From Pseudothauera rhizosphaerae (GTDB taxonomy: Bacteria; Pseudomonadota; Gammaproteobacteria; Burkholderiales; Rhodocyclaceae), in contig NZ_SSOD01000022.1 in the NCBI RefSeq assembly GCF_004801305.1, positions 1 to 64,000 on the forward strand: a DNA stretch of 64,000 nucleotides, read 5' to 3'. Position numbers and translations under genes: made by a program. Each line of letters begins with the position of its first letter. Positions within the stretch are counted from its first letter, which is position 1. Positions 57,701 through 61,472 of this stretch are shown in pieces. The notes below the pieces were generated by a model. That model had not been told where the DNA came from. It saw nothing but the letters and a program-made list of their open reading frames with translations, and searched no databases.

Positions 57701-58958
57701 CGCGGAGCGCAGCTTCGACGTCCCGCCGCCTGGTTGCAGGGCTCTGCACCATCTCTTCAGGGGCGGCTTGGCCTCGGCCAGCCTCGAACTCCGCGCGCTG
57801 ACGGTACAGCTCCGCAGCGCGCGCGTCAGCCGCAGCCACTTCGTTCTCGCGCTCGACCTCGGCCTGCAGGATCTGTTCGTTCGGCGTGCCGGTGCTCACC
57901 GGGGCGGGCAGCAGGCCGGCGGGCTCATCCACGAACTCCGGCTCAATGGTCAGCCCGGCGGGCTCCTGCTGGCCGGCATCCGAGCGGCGTGCCGGCAGCA
58001 CGTTCGCACCCGCCCCCATCGCGCCGCCGGCAATCGCCCCTTCCACCGCTGCACGCGGCACGCCTTCCATCAGGTCGCGCCCTTCGGCCCAGTTCTGCCA
58101 CATCTGCTCCTGCACGGACTGCGGCAGTTCCTCGAACGCGCCCTCGCTCAGCGCGCCGCCGAGCATCCGGCGGACCAGCCCCTGCGGCGGGCGATCCGCC
58201 GCCAGTCCGCCGGCAATCGCCGTTTCAGGATCGACCACGCCCAGCCGCTGCGCCAGCCGGCCACCGGCATATCCCAGTCCAGCAGTCAGCGCTCCGGTAC
58301 CAGCCGCCGCTGCAGCGGCCCGCCGGGGATCGACGCTCTCGTCGATATGGCTCATGGTCTGGCCGGCAGAGATGGCACCTTCACCGCCCGCGCCAGCAAT
58401 AACCGCCTGGCGGGCTGCCTGCGCAGCGCCCGCGGCGCCGGCAGCGGGGCGAGCGACGGCCCCCGCCATGCGCCCCACGGTCAGCGCGCCGCGCCCGATA
58501 AAGCCGCCGGCCGCCATCCCCGGCAGGGATTCCGCCACCAGCCCCGCCACGTTGCCGGGGTTGCGCAGGTAGGCGCCGGCCACGTCCGCCGCGCTGCCCT
58601 CGTCCCACGCCTGTTCGATCTCGGCAGTGCCTGCCTGGCGCTGCGGGCTGTACTCGGCGCGCGCCTCCTCGGCCCACTTGCCGGGCTGGAAGCCGGTCGC
58701 TTCGCCCAGGGCGTCAGCCGCCTCGCTCACGTAGCGCTCGCCGGTGATGGCCGCCACCGGGATGTCGGCGAGGCCCGTCAGCGCGCCGGGCAACTGCTGC
58801 GCACCGCGCTTCACGTCGGTGGCGAGGTCGCCGGCAAGGGAGGTGTTCTGCTTGGGCGAGGCAGTCCCAGCCAAGCCATCATCGAACTGATCAAAGAAGT
58901 TGCCAGCTGCTGGCGCGGCATCCTCTGCGTCGAATTGATCGAAGAAATTCGTCGCCAT
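51729..58958 (-). CDS. 2409-residue phage polyvalent / DNA-ejection-type protein
   Basis: One unbroken ORF with an AAGGAG ribosome site. Features in order: NFFDQFD at residues 4-10 and 20-26; a Gly/Ala-rich membrane-active-looking region (about 120-330); two copies of an about 45-residue PHP unit (VAMPHPQREGRF near 585, VVPHPKVAGRF near 640); a MuF-C/PBECR-like region (about 928-1060, PVMVFNSRTEQGALVALVEA, IASIYGKDR); a zincin motif HETTH (1170-1174); an ART-like region (about 1329-1430, FKMWFADSKMKTTEGKPIVF, GHFFTRDKGVAEKYA); and a long C-terminal LPD-like region (about 1750-2250). Such polyvalent proteins are thought to be injected with phage DNA. Individual domain calls are by eye. Confidence 0.85.
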   Translation of the reverse strand: MATNFFDQFDAEDAAPAAGNFFDQFDDGLAGTASPKQNTSLAGDLATDVKRGAQQLPGALTGLADIPVAAITGERYVSEAADALGEATGFQPGKWAEEARAEYSPQRQAGTAEIEQAWDEGSAADVAGAYLRNPGNVAGLVAESLPGMAAGGFIGRGALTVGRMAGAVARPAAGAAGAAQAARQAVIAGAGGEGAISAGQTMSHIDESVDPRRAAAAAAGTGALTAGLGYAGGRLAQRLGVVDPETAIAGGLAADRPPQGLVRRMLGGALSEGAFEELPQSVQEQMWQNWAEGRDLMEGVPRAAVEGAIAGGAMGAGANVLPARRSDAGQQEPAGLTIEPEFVDEPAGLLPAPVSTGTPNEQILQAEVERENEVAAADARAAELYRQRAEFEAGRGQAAPEEMVQSPATRRRDVEAALREQVEPQVILDENGRPKSTTSRYEIDLFHAEIDERMAKQQRNIEAGRRLQAARRPSEQMGINPADGPISAAAALAVDGGATQQLAQQVAAQEPNAAASGGADRMAANTPVDQAESRAIAGYSGGGQSTEVAPEPARSIERMSIPLGTMEAAQRVAARNRERSGGEWVAMPHPQREGRFVAALVAPESNQGAAQQAQPTRAMPLTETGAARAAERWSRERGEPYTVVPHPKVAGRFTAVPAAQIQGSQDGASPDDRTDAAVATPSGAQAGADLDRGTGAAPQQPDVPAVGRVESASAGPVAGGAAVESAGAADGGRAAVAPPEAGSPLGQALRILLDRTDGNGSPDGLTGPENAQARAEIVAALTGQRVAEIEAAPNYKFRTSVPQVERLLYDAAGIPAGNLAARRAPFLDWLDAQTGQQAPVQSIEYEEGETGGLRFSRAGRAAFTPDAYDAQQFAQAVDRIAAAETAPRTDLTVGDTPAVLRALGAKALPVQMPSSVIHKASRPAVREHDVPVEVLRNLPALLADPVMVFNSRTEQGALVALVEARDASSRPVVVAIHMDAKGGGFHRINRIASIYGKDRVADIENWMRGDLRYYQTQKAPQWLRAVGLQLPEANTIKRLNPSVITEADVVNAAPGLRRSVGPAPTQASPITRATLREAMAARFPSLAGAVDAMLKRGDEGKRGGLVMIDSTNPLRIAQAYSRATGRSAMESVQYFSEGETVQGFYDPKSGLTFMVGPNLTAETVPAVLLHETTHGQQRERIDAKAMDLIGRRDKLARPLRDFLSRVAGRMMDAGEANNQSEAAAYIVEQAVLEGRQAGFSAADGKLLNWIDMRLGKPVGDIVRVWVAMIRAWGMRHGFYPRDLTVDDLVAFARAGVRQAARGDVLTKEDDDGRQASRPDLAAVTASENFKMWFADSKMKTTEGKPIVFMHGSPNEFEAFDNGRLGLSSNHATAGMGHFFTRDKGVAEKYADGGHLYRGWLRMENPYVMKLSETQAIEDPQSAAKRREALKRQGRDGIIMLDDAGKPWAFVVFEPWQFKSTDNRGTFDEFDDRFRFSRAGRTASAISNQAQLLYERATGQQRSNQNDPFRAENTRLREQDRTLWNKAKQQLRRWLSPGGLLPDAVFAEKIKRDSEFQAVEFDVRHAVGGLERAVKQDYGVPFDKLTDAQQRALSEALAGKVPAGLPEATRAAVVAMRQYIDSLSGEYLQIIQSRIDALMLQAQSSGRANDAAAAINEIELYEKIRGNIGAYVHRSYQAFDDPTWFRKVPTSTLNAARRYLRDGYMEDGKTSEAEALRLADVALNEILKNGTAYDSMESFIAEGKLGAKDLSVLTRRKNVPPEIRALLGEYTDSRLNFTKSATKMGRLIWNQRFLDRVREIGVGTFLFEGRDRPPAATTQIAAEGSEVYAPLNGLWTFPEVAQAFKDALAKEKMSDLYRFIVRANGLVKYGKTVLSPTTAMRNWQSAMFFALANGHFDLSQMRKSVAAFREQVRQNASGDDLAYLRHLKKLGVVYDTPYAGEMMRYIEDAKADTGVDAVMRLFGASEGAIAKGLRGMRQVNQIAQGFYSFGDDFWKVIGFENEKANLMKAGMSLAEAEREAAQRIRNTYPTYSMVGAGVRWLSRFPLMGTFVSFPAEIVRTTANMLRITAADLKSDNPAIRAMGMKRAVGMAMVSGMFYGLAALTKAMAGVDDDEEEALRDLAPEWQKNSTFLFAGRDEKGNLRYFDLSFLDPYGYWKRPITAMLRDQPWEDAAASAVKDMLTPFFGADIATSAIFQVLANKKETGGKVYQENAAAFDQAGDIANHLRKALQPGFVGNVERLTLAAQGVRREGSGQPYDMEDEMVALLGWRASTMDPKTALYYRSFEFNDAMTEARQVLTRTLRSVNAVSPEDIREARTTAQRRQEDAFTEMHRLVQAARAAGMNPFQIRQVLQQSGISRANAAALMRGTPPPLVIGAQAAGRAVQQARVMEGPEFAQEVAKRFRAAATAQ

Positions 58959-59073
58959 TCCCTACTCCTTCCTGCTCAAACGTACAGCGCTGGCCGTCAA
59001 TCGCCACGATCACCGCACCCCACAGCAGCCGCAACAGGCGCGGCGACTTGTCGATCAGTTCCAGTGCGCTCAC
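58891..59073 (-). CDS. Possible 60-residue phage mini-gene overlapping the large gene
   Basis: The ORF starts at GTG 59073, overlapping the upstream mini-gene stop as GTGA, and reads VSALELIDKSPRLLRLLWGAVIVAIDGQ. It runs 68 bases into the start of the 2409-residue gene in another frame. The coupling supports it; the long overlap speaks against it. Function unknown. Confidence 0.35.
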   Translation of the reverse strand: MSALELIDKSPRLLRLLWGAVIVAIDGQRCTFEQEGVGNGDEFLRSIRRRGCRASSWQLL

Positions 59074-59198
59074 TTCGCCTTCCACGCCAAGAGCAGCCCA
59101 ACGATCCAGCCGAGCGGCGTCAAGGCCATGACCACAAGCCACACCCACAGCAGAACGAAGCGCCAGGGCGGCAGGTCTTTGATGGCCGCAATCACCAT
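59070..59198 (-). CDS. 42-residue phage membrane mini-protein
   Basis: It starts with ATG 59198, reads MVIAAIKDLPPWRFVLLWVW, then a second hydrophobic part (LTPLGWIVGLLLAWKAK). It begins within the last codons of the preceding mini-gene and its stop overlaps the next. It probably spans the membrane once or twice; a holin-like or superinfection role is possible, but nothing specific supports either. Confidence 0.5.
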   Translation of the reverse strand: MVIAAIKDLPPWRFVLLWVWLVVMALTPLGWIVGLLLAWKAK

Positions 59199-59311
59199 TC
59201 GCGCAGCACCCAAAGCAACGGCGTTGCCGCCAGCATGAGGATCGCCAGGCCGATGCAGAACCGAAGCCATGGCGACAAACCCGCCTCAAGCTGAAGTCCG
59301 TCCTTGTTCAT
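59192..59311 (-). CDS. 39-residue phage membrane mini-protein
   Basis: ATG 59311 follows a GGGGGAA ribosome site. The product reads MNKDGLQLEAGLSPWLRFCI and then GLAILMLAATPLLWVLREW, a single hydrophobic helix. It overlaps the next mini-gene by 7 bases. Too short to classify. Confidence 0.5.
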   Translation of the reverse strand: MNKDGLQLEAGLSPWLRFCIGLAILMLAATPLLWVLREW

Positions 59312-59342
59312 GTGGATTCCCCCTGTGAATGTGTTCGGTAGC

Positions 59343-59371
59343 AGCGGGAGGGCACCGTCCCCCTCCCCGCT
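59343..59371. other. GC hairpin upstream of the mini-gene cluster
   Basis: AGCGGGAGGG pairs with CCCTCCCCGCT with one bulge. It stands in the gap (59312-59466) between the leftward mini-genes and the rightward moron gene and has no T-run. The rest of this gap shows no gene. Confidence 0.4.
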
Positions 59372-59458
59372 GGTAAATCAAACTGGACGCGATGCCCCCG
59401 TCAGCAACACAGCAAGGCCGTTCCGATAGGCTTGCGCCGTCCGTCCAGCGGTGATATG

Positions 59459-59488
59459 AAGCGAGGATGCATAAAACCATCCTCGCTT
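59459..59488 (+). promoter_or_regulatory. Perfect 11-bp hairpin over the moron start codon
   Basis: AAGCGAGGATG (59459-59469) and CATCCTCGCTT (59478-59488) form a perfect stem with an 8-base loop, followed by TCTTTC. The 5' arm contains the GAGG ribosome site and the ATG of the moron gene. It could block translation of read-through transcripts, or act as a weak terminator for both strands. Confidence 0.65.
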
Positions 59489-59814
59489 TCTTTCTGGCCT
59501 TGCCTGTAGTCGTCCAGGCTGCGAACTACGGCACCTGCCTTCTCGACAAGCTACCCGGCACCGCCAACGACGTAGCCGCCAACGCCATCGTGCAGGTCTG
59601 CCTGGCGGAGAACCCCGGCGGTATCCAGGCAGTCGCACAGGGCTCCGGACGGGGATGGTTCAGTCACAAGTCTGGTGCCGAATGCACGGCCAAGCTCGCC
59701 GCCGACACCCGGAGCAACCGGGCGGCGGCGTTGATTCGGCAGGCGTGCGTGAAGCTGTACGATGAGCCGAACTTTTTCGACCAGTTCGACCCGCCTGCTC
59801 AACCTGCCAGATAG
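59467..59814 (+). CDS. Phage moron: secreted four-cysteine protein with NFFDQFD tail
   Basis: A 115-residue protein on the strand opposite to the virion genes around it. It has a signal peptide (HKTILAFFLALPVVVQA, cleavage about residue 18), then a mature domain with Cys24, 45, 73 and 94 (two possible disulfides). Family-like motifs are GTCLLDKLPGTANDVAANAI, GSGRGWFS and AECTAKLAADTRSNRAAALI. Similar small exported proteins occur in bacteria and phages, unnamed. The C-terminus reads PNFFDQFDPP (motif at residues 102-108), which repeats the N-terminal motif of the 2409-residue virion protein. The 3' end overlaps the neighbour tail to tail by 16 bases. Confidence 0.75.
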   Translation: MHKTILAFFLALPVVVQAANYGTCLLDKLPGTANDVAANAIVQVCLAENPGGIQAVAQGSGRGWFSHKSGAECTAKLAADTRSNRAAALIRQACVKLYDEPNFFDQFDPPAQPAR

Positions 59815-61472
59815 CGCGCGGCTGCCCCTGCCCCATACTTCCTATCGAACTCGGCCGCACGCTGCGGATTTGCTTTGAGGGCAGCCACTGCAGCCGTTGG
59901 AACTTGCGTGGAAGCCGCCGCCGGCTGCTCCACGAACTGCCCGGTCTGGTTGTTGAGCACCCTCGCCGGTACGTTCCGCATCGTGTTCGCGGCTTGGTCG
60001 AACTCCTGGCCGCCGGGGACGACGGTGAAGCGGTTCGGATTGGCCTGTCCAGACCACAAACGGATCTGCTCTGCGATGGCTGGACGATCCGCCGGGGCGG
60101 CCTGATCGTACTGCTGCTGGAGTGCTTCTACTCGCTGCGCAGCGTTATTCTGGAAGCCGCGTGCGATGGCTTCGCTCAGTGCGCGCTGCTGATCCATCCC
60201 GAGGCGCTCGCGGTCCAGGCCGAGCCGCGCAGTCGCCTGCGCATCCTCCTGCTGGCCGCGGATCAGCCCTGCGGCCACCTGCCGGCCGGAACGGCTCGGG
60301 CCGGTGAGCATGTCGCGGAACATCTCCGTGGCCGTCTTCTGCCGCGAGAGGGCGCCGCCCTGGTTGAAGGTGATCCCGTCTCGGATGGCCGTCATCTCGC
60401 CCCTGATCTGGTTCGCGCGGGCCATGCGCTGGTTGGCGAGGTTCAGGTCGATGCCGCCAGGAAGTCCACCACGCTCGGCAAAGGCGCGTGCAACCAGCCC
60501 GCCGCCGCTCGGCACGGTCGACACCCCAGGCCGCATGCCGCCCGCAACCCAGTCCGCCGTATCTTCCTGGTCGTTGGTGTAGATCGTGCGGCCGTCCGCC
60601 CCGGTCAGACGGGTGATGCCCGGCGCGCCGGAGACCGCGCGGGCGGCGAAGCCCTGGCCGGCCAGCCGGTCACCGGCCGTCAAGCCCTGGTTGGCGATGG
60701 TCGGACCGAAGGCTTCGCGCATGAAACTGCGCTGGGGACCGCCCGTCAGTCCGTATTCCTGGATGAGCGGAGTCATGTTCTTCAGCGCCCCGCTGTCCTG
60801 CAGGGCGCGCCGAACCAAGCCGCCACCTTGCGGTGCGTCGAAGCCGACATCGCGGTTCATGAAGCTCGTCGGCGGCTCGGCTGTTGGCTGCTGCCCGCCC
60901 AGGCGTACCGGCTCAGGGTTGCCGGTGAATGCGGTGCGCGCTGCAGTGGAGATGCCTTCAGCCACGGGCCGCGTGGCCTCGGTGAGCGCATTGGACGCCC
61001 CGGACGCAGCACGCCATGCATCACGCGCGGCACCCAGCGGCACGCCAGCCGCGCTGCGCAGGGTCTGCCCTGCCGCCGCACCAAGGCCGCCCGCCCGGTA
61101 GGCCCCGGAAATCTCACCCGGCGCACCCAGCACTGCCCGCTGCGTGTTCGGGATGGTGTTGCTCGCCCCCAGCGTGCTCATGAGCCCGCGCGCCACGTTG
61201 CCCAGTTCGCTGTTGGCGCTACCGTAGAGCCCGCCGGAGCGATTCGCGTTGACGCGGTTCATCGTCTCGCCGAAGGTCGGTGAGCGCTTCAGTGCCTGCG
61301 CGACGAGGCCGGTTCCGGCCGGCTGGCTCGTCCCGCCGGGCGGACGGGTAATACCGGAAGACGCCATCAGCGAACCACCGCCAGCTTGCGGCGGCCGAGA
61401 AAGCGCCTGCGCCACCAAGCCACGAGGCCGCAGCGGATCGGGTCTGAAGAGGTCGTCGTCGTTCGTTGCCAT
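59799..61472 (-). CDS. 557-residue phage virion-associated protein with GLVxxAL repeats
   Basis: From ATG 61472 (ribosome site AAGGAGAAGG). Low-complexity, Gly/Ala/Arg-rich. A short motif GLVxxA(L/F) occurs four times, at residues 18, 55, 218 and 325 (GLVAQALSR, GLVAQALKR, GLVRRALQD, GLVARAFAE), each after a Gly/Pro-rich spacer. The C-terminal third is a coiled region (EALQQQYDQAAPADRPAIAEQIRLW) ending with EFDRKYGAGAAARYL. Its position between virion genes and the ejection-type protein suggests an internal virion or ejection role. No family recognised. Confidence 0.75.
   Translation of the reverse strand: MATNDDDLFRPDPLRPRGLVAQALSRPPQAGGGSLMASSGITRPPGGTSQPAGTGLVAQALKRSPTFGETMNRVNANRSGGLYGSANSELGNVARGLMSTLGASNTIPNTQRAVLGAPGEISGAYRAGGLGAAAGQTLRSAAGVPLGAARDAWRAASGASNALTEATRPVAEGISTAARTAFTGNPEPVRLGGQQPTAEPPTSFMNRDVGFDAPQGGGLVRRALQDSGALKNMTPLIQEYGLTGGPQRSFMREAFGPTIANQGLTAGDRLAGQGFAARAVSGAPGITRLTGADGRTIYTNDQEDTADWVAGGMRPGVSTVPSGGGLVARAFAERGGLPGGIDLNLANQRMARANQIRGEMTAIRDGITFNQGGALSRQKTATEMFRDMLTGPSRSGRQVAAGLIRGQQEDAQATARLGLDRERLGMDQQRALSEAIARGFQNNAAQRVEALQQQYDQAAPADRPAIAEQIRLWSGQANPNRFTVVPGGQEFDQAANTMRNVPARVLNNQTGQFVEQPAAASTQVPTAAVAALKANPQRAAEFDRKYGAGAAARYLAG

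Follow-up and report, generated by a model that had tools for sequence, protein, structure and literature searches.

A 64,000-nucleotide stretch of Pseudothauera rhizosphaerae DNA (contig NZ_SSOD01000022.1, positions 1 to 64,000; referred to as the window) carries a prophage in which the short motif NFFDQFD occurs twice at the N-terminal head of a giant late protein and once in the C-terminal tail of a small four-cysteine protein, here called the moron. Comparison with homologous loci demonstrated that the moron tail follows the tandem head motif (the tag) of its own giant through many different classes, and that the C-terminal module of the next large late gene upstream of the giant, here called the reader, covaries with both. 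We consider it rather probable that tag, reader and moron work together as a docking and decoy system of three tag-matched parts, carried by temperate phages that eject a giant protein. The tag match, the covariation of tag and reader, their occurrence without the moron and the moron tails with several tags are direct results of the computations.

The motif in the window

The first-pass annotation of the window had described NFFDQFD twice at the head of the giant and once in the moron tail, with three codings differing at synonymous sites, and both observations were borne out (Table 1). Its coordinates were also correct but did not take in the C-terminus encoded by the next gene, a third element. 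The late genes lie here on the minus strand; the moron, which ends with PNFFDQFDPPAQPAR, sits on the plus strand between the reader gene, a late gene of 557 amino acids, and the giant. Its 3′ end overlaps that of the reader gene by 16 nucleotides, and its start is about 0.5 kb from the giant start. A degenerate 17-mer covering FFDQF and a following D or E occurred three times in the 4,602,265-base genome, exclusively at the known sites, and the same pattern read backwards gave 0 occurrences in this genome. Codons were compared in 30 non-redundant pairs of tail and own head, with M and W excluded: the same codon was present at 95 of 215 identical residues (0.44), with 0.48 expected from codon usage. 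Codon sharing between tail and head is not beyond usage.

Moron tails match the giant of their own locus

The discovery searches by profile yielded 67 loci with a moron, duplicates and fragments included. Over a dozen tag classes were found among the homologues, among them DWExG, DLFDELGI, LKPFxGxLDGE, IDxFL, GPWxxY, FSYEDAFGL, WWKxxSTP, FDPSTAxP, DQFGGxLV, SLAxEFGL, DWxQxELV and NPFxDPxLG. Apart from the exceptions discussed below, the giant heads examined carry two tandem tags whose class agrees with the moron tail. In phage LKA5, for example, the moron ends with KKPWEEYQ.. and the giant starts with KPWEEF..KPWEEF, and in locus L005 tail and head are both of the NFFD class. At the level of sequence, what the homologues conserve is the match between tail and head and not the literal NFFDQFD; conservation of the literal motif was rejected, as the class changes while the match persists.

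The discovery set comprised 35 non-redundant morons for which the start of the giant is visible, and 32 of them had a tail matching the tandem tags of their own giant. The count excludes near-duplicates (L004, L033, L051, L052, L064, L069, L071, L079, L081 and L082), L007, in whose record the giant start is broken, JBD90 and F_ET605 with a broken moron frame, and loci without the giant start in view; homology of the giant body brought in L080 (a match) and L083 (a mismatch). Two further scans provided a hold-out set of 33 new distinct morons (including L186), eight of them without the giant start in view. Tail and head matched in 25/25 with the start in view, a count that retains near-duplicates (L134/L135, L176/L188/L190 and L198/L204/L209; L165 is LKA5-like); L219 with its truncated moron was excluded.

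For 30 triplets of tail, head and reader, the mean score of a tail was 41.0 against its own head compared to 17.9 against other heads, and the pairing score was reached by 0 of 20,000 permutations. The own head ranked first for 12 of the 30 tails and among the top 3 of 30 heads for 27. Identity of the moron bodies was independent of the tag (mean 0.63 within and 0.62 between classes; 37 bodies), and different tags were carried by 37 of 38 pairs of close bodies, a figure inflated by the prior removal of near-identical rows with the same tag. When the giant was not located first, 27 of 60 loci had an own tail that scored above every one of 200 shuffles; this is low partly because contigs or stretches stop before the giant. 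A regular expression search for a third tag copy elsewhere in LKA5, covering all frames of at least 40 amino acids, returned only the moron, the giant head and two PWSVY frames. Mimicry kept at the protein level, as proposed in the first-pass annotation, is strongly supported by the moron tail tracking the giant tag across many unlike classes.

The C-terminal module of the reader follows the tag

A comparison of eight related prophage contigs by overall identity revealed no gene clearly tracking the tag class. We then used the tag classes as labels and searched 47 gene families for windows in which identity goes with the class. The best window was the reader C-terminus of about 30 residues, with an area under the receiver operating characteristic curve (AUC) of 0.89 and 68 same-class pairs; the scan also recovered the moron tail (AUC 0.79) and the giant head (0.80, 19 pairs). 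Further families rested on few pairs (n=15, AUC 0.88, 8 pairs; n=16, 0.82, 8; n=14, 0.82, 5; n=22, 0.78, 5; n=13, 0.75, 8; n=28, 0.74, 5; n=13, 0.72, 8; n=13, 0.71, 11). Each tag class has its own C-terminal reader module: AEFDxKYGxGAAxxYL for NFFD, TAVWDGxKWV for DWExG, LSREQKVEALRKLGY for IDxFL, GGKPVYEDAxGxRF for LKPFxG and GYRFKGGxPADxxxWE for PWxxY, including LKA5.

Over the 30 triplets, head and reader correlated with r = 0.83 and tail and reader with r = 0.78, each with 0 of 5,000 permutations. For the hold-out set, the last 20 residues of 32 tails were classed against the discovery heads and the readers against the discovery readers (L186 excluded). Tag class and reader class agreed in 25 of 28 evaluable cases, which 0 of 100,000 permutations reached. 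For the partner of the motif that the first-pass annotation had postulated, the covariation suggests the reader module as a candidate. The reader matches PHROG 11341 (function unknown) at residues 406-524 of the reading used for the search. A model of the window module, built from six sequences only (predicted template modelling score 0.31), has three short helices with predicted local distance difference test (pLDDT) values of 78-87 past a low-confidence linker. PDB searches by sequence and fold gave no usable match, and LKA5_058, the reader homologue of LKA5, had no PDB sequence match.

Tag and reader without linkage and without the moron

Moron and reader often lie tail to tail with their ends within about 15 nucleotides, so that one crossover could swap moron tail and reader together. 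The agreement of tail, head and reader was also found in three non-adjacent arrangements, which counters a reading based on linkage only: in LKA5, moron and giant are separated by the reader gene, moron and reader are non-adjacent in L023/L029 (G142 prophage), and in L070/L085 the giant is about 30 kb from the moron and the reader is apart too.

The Hollowayviruses H66, F116, D14I and Epa33 combine the tag KPWEEF with a GYRFKGG reader, whereas in PA8, BR228a and Baskent_P6 both the tag (TWGENDKIV..DFGANDEVV) and the end of the reader are of another kind; the giants of the two groups are 98% identical after the tag. None of these phages was among the ten moron-holding phage records (E ≤ 0.01). 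A KPWESF tag together with the reader class of the H66 group was found in 8P and USP_25, and in Shewanella phage Y11 a clear tag was not seen. As tag and reader were swapped jointly in the absence of the moron, the pair can exist by itself, with the moron as an add-on. Tag and reader are probably a virion docking pair, and the moron would be an exported copy of the tag.

Moron tails with two tags

Two different tags were present in nine moron tails (L019, L043, L078, L198, L204, L209, L207, L211 and L212). The distal tag was of the own class in 9/9, judged by the own head or the own reader. The proximal tag matched a foreign class, with 0 to 26 of 1,000 shuffles reaching its score and L019 the weakest; the test covered seven segments, as L204 and L209 are near copies of L198 and were not tested apart. 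The proximal segment of L043 has DIPFDPSTARP in common with the L061/L062 tails and had its best score with the head of L038, where FDPSTARP is present. No reader or giant seen at the same locus corresponds to these foreign tags, in keeping with a role in excluding other phages or with remnants of a switch. The idea of superinfection exclusion put forward in the first-pass annotation is thus favoured, as far as it concerns other phages, by what the foreign tags suggest, and is challenged by three unmatched morons described below.

The moron and the giant

Moron homologues are encoded by phages LKA5, phiC725A and E220, and IMG/VR records show others next to late phage genes; moron records span Pseudomonas, Thauera, Comamonas, Paracidovorax and Burkholderia. 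As expected for superinfection exclusion, the moron is encoded by temperate phages. Four cysteines (C24, C45, C73 and C94) are invariant across 43 aligned homologues, and the N-terminus, judged by eye, resembles a signal peptide. The family NF041602 of NCBIfam (VF_A0006 family four-cysteine protein) matched 12/12 morons of alignment A1 weakly, and four conserved cysteines of this type are present in the moron; P0001 itself scored 43.6 bits, below the curated cut-off of 65. A mention of VF_A0006 was not found in the open-licence PubMed Central (PMC) papers searched. P0001 matched 0 families of known anti-phage defence in PADLOC-DB at E ≤ 1, and a search of genome contigs with the single protein as query gave no matches. 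In the AlphaFold2 model, a compact helical core lies mostly above pLDDT 90 and the tail blocks reach lower values of 70 and 63; such a tail beside a compact core would be in keeping with a tethered motif.

The records of LKA5 (KC900378 45458-45805), phiC725A (LT603684 45089-45436) and E220 (MF490237 27713-28060) lack a gene annotation for the moron, and that of LKA5 has predicted promoters and a terminator at the moron site. A run of eight A directly precedes the PWEE codons of the LKA5 moron (L006:10215-10300). In the records of JBD90 and F_ET605 (moron frames of L090 and L091; marked UNVERIFIED), the tail is frameshifted at the A run, by phase variation or draft-sequence error. Truncated moron-like fragments were observed in L035, L037, L054:9144-9299 and L068:7673-7828, some of them beside an intact copy. 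A sub-family (L194, L198 and L201-L216) has a long insert between cysteine domain and tag, which begins with TPSAGPTDMCERYPL and leaves the tag near the C-terminus. On the plus strand of L219 (9851-11358), a truncated moron is followed by a 383-amino-acid frame with NPFADPNYG, the tag of the giant of L219, and with a stretch resembling the insert of this sub-family.

Two domains of the giant, MuF_C and ART-PolyVal (ADP-ribosyltransferase), were above the Pfam cut-off. The giant also matches a virion structural PHROG and part of a virion RNA polymerase PHROG; the match to PHROG 2206, used as a test for an N4-type virion RNA polymerase, spans residues 123-527 only, and Pfam shows no polymerase domain in the giant. 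Its homologue H66_0060 is annotated as a virion part verified by mass spectrometry, and on this annotation the giant is a putative virion protein. Directly after a swapped tag, identity between the giants of related prophages is about 90-100%. A second swapped stretch (residues ~780-1000) was observed in the otherwise very similar giants of G703/G704/G706/G708 and G701/G702; it was rejected as a tag-linked element as it varies independently of the tag.

Table 1. Elements of the putative docking and decoy system in the window
Feature	Position	Strand	Remarks
Moron, putatively exported four-cysteine protein P0001, 115 amino acids	59467..59814	+	opposite late-gene strand
NFFDQFD tag copy in moron tail (residues 102-108)	59770..59790	+	
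Giant polyvalent protein P0002, 2409 amino acids	51729..58958	-	Pfam and PHROG matches
Putative docking tag of giant, copy 1 (residues 4-10)	58929..58949	-	
Putative docking tag of giant, copy 2 (residues 20-26)	58881..58901	-	
MuF_C and ART-PolyVal domains of giant			residues 921-1020 and 1341-1466
Reader gene, next large late gene upstream of giant, 557 amino acids	59799..61472	-	ATG 61472, AGGAG upstream
Candidate C-terminal reader module, NFFD class (AAVAALKANPQRAAEFDRKYGAGAAARYLAG)	59802..59894	-	

Between moron and giant, the minus strand at 59070-59311 holds two small overlapping frames of 66 and 39 amino acids with long hydrophobic stretches, possibly small membrane proteins.

Discussion

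The mechanism that we infer involves binding of the tag by the reader, a role of the reader in ejection, export of the moron, its expression in the lysogen and exclusion of incoming phages. At its N-terminus, the giant displays a short tag twice in tandem, and the C-terminal module of the upstream late gene would bind this tag class and tether the giant for ejection through the periplasm. The moron would export a compact four-cysteine domain bearing the same tag on a flexible tail and meet the reader in the periplasm. In a lysogen, its tail may then fill the reader of an incoming like-tagged phage, so that the giant could not dock and DNA entry would fail. Phages might escape by swapping tag and reader, with the moron tail following, and older or foreign tags kept on some tails would widen the range of excluded phages. 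A more general form of this proposal, to which we give an even chance, is a barcode system of phages, in which swappable triplets of tag, reader and exported decoy decide which phages inject into which lysogens, escape diversifies the tags, and moron tails array the tags of past phages or competitors, usually with the own tag last.

If true, there would be a rule, readable from sequence, for which prophage excludes which phage; exclusion would proceed through imitation of a virion docking motif, and the contact between a giant ejected protein and the product of the preceding gene would be named. For phages N4 and DEV, the hold on the giant's N-terminus is given only as a proposal in the excerpts of the papers cited here and below (PMC12633501, PMC10925440). 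The tags allow a direct test of how this N-terminus is held.

Several points weigh against a docking and decoy system. Morons lacking the motif of their own giant, which the first-pass annotation had named as refuting evidence, occur in three of the 35 discovery cases. The tail of L024 has no tag, with a candidate giant known only by its tandem FVPL/FVPM head and no body homology; L076, which is also non-adjacent, has head and reader of the FDPS class and a VGTFGDLKKP tail; and L083 combines the head LKPFSG/LQPFTR with the tail NPFDKY..NPFEKY, two like tags neither of which matches its own giant. Furthermore, a giant was not recognised on the 106-kb contig of L022 (G057:C66; L022, L031, L087 and L129-L131), where the moron tail reads GWKPYTGDVE. 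The Hollowayviruses without a moron do not bear on such unmatched cases. The three discordant hold-out cases carry NPFxDPxYG, a class without a training triplet, and the clusters of readers and tags are not one-to-one (10 compared to 12). Much of the correlation between tail and reader could be linkage, and the tails with several tags could be relics of switching. The reader homologues LKA5_058 and H66_0059 are annotated as hypothetical, and a sigma-70-like consensus promoter was not found in 58900-60000. Phage phiC725A has the moron, and its lysogens exclude the same phage according to an excerpt of the original report (PMC5217972); this can stem from the repressor or from the reported restriction of pilus-using phages.

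Tag and reader might be a docking pair to which the moron docks within the phage's own cycle, as virion passenger, assembly regulator or conduit plug, with no part in exclusion. We regard this as unlikely, though worth serious attention: the distal tag usually fits the own reader, as self-docking requires, but the signal-peptide-like N-terminus and the four invariant cysteines point to the periplasm over cytoplasmic assembly, close Hollowayviruses manage without a moron, and the proximal tags as well as the L076 and L083 tails match no reader or giant seen at their own locus. Under homotypic recognition, tag would bind to tag, and the covariation of the C-terminal module would have a separate cause; this would explain why the giant heads listed have two copies and why the tag is identical in the partners and not complementary. 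Yet the covariation of module and tag extends to phages that lack a moron, and the module predicts the tag class in the hold-out set; we find such recognition improbable.

The three elements could also lack a common function, the neighbouring 3′ ends of moron and reader and the 5′ end of the giant having been replaced together or copied by gene conversion. The tail-to-tail overlap and the nearby giant start in the window speak for this. Joint replacement, however, cannot create the peptide resemblance between moron and giant, codons are not shared beyond usage, and the match persists with the giant 30 kb away in L070/L085 and with the reader apart. This explanation is already disfavoured and retains very little probability. 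We give equally little credit to the idea that the tag is bound by the host, through one of its proteins or a defence sensor that the moron would saturate to the benefit of the phage. Morons are present in several host groups, as this would predict, but a single host factor needs no differing, matched tags in phages with moron bodies more than 90% identical, nor would it demand a covarying phage module.

In modular enzymes, docking domains and short linear motifs achieve matched, swappable specificity by pairing a C-terminal module with the terminal motif of the next protein. The proposed docking and decoy system differs in being built from phage late proteins and in having a third protein that carries a copy of the motif. 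Neither tag-matched exclusion nor this moron was found in titles or abstracts of open-licence PMC papers among the matches listed. Like the proposed moron, SieA of P22 is an envelope protein made by the prophage that blocks DNA injection, and mutations that escape it map to ejection proteins (PMC10883804). SieA is an inner-membrane protein, however, and the passages on SieA in that paper describe no copied motif of an ejection protein; two SieA types compared did not differ in target specificity, whereas the tags here are matched and diversified. Ltp of the Streptococcus thermophilus phage TP-J34, which acts on the tape measure protein, resembles the moron, as proposed here, in being an exported prophage protein that acts on an ejected structural protein, but is thought to bind its target via repeat domains (PMC3952083); the moron would instead imitate one partner of a docking pair. 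In the ejectosome of Schitoviruses (N4 gp50/gp51/gp52 and DEV gp71/gp72/gp73), the N-terminal domain (NTD) of the giant is proposed to meet the tunnel protein of the adjacent gene, and the excerpts mention neither tag classes nor swapped C-terminal modules, nor an exported mimic (PMC12633501, PMC10925440). The likeness of the reader to gp51/gp72 is one of geometry. In N4, the gp51 C-terminus and the gp50-NTD are placed at the inner membrane, and gp50 is proposed to follow gp51 through their interaction (PMC12633501); the covariation of upstream C-terminus and giant N-terminus observed here has the same geometry as this proposal.

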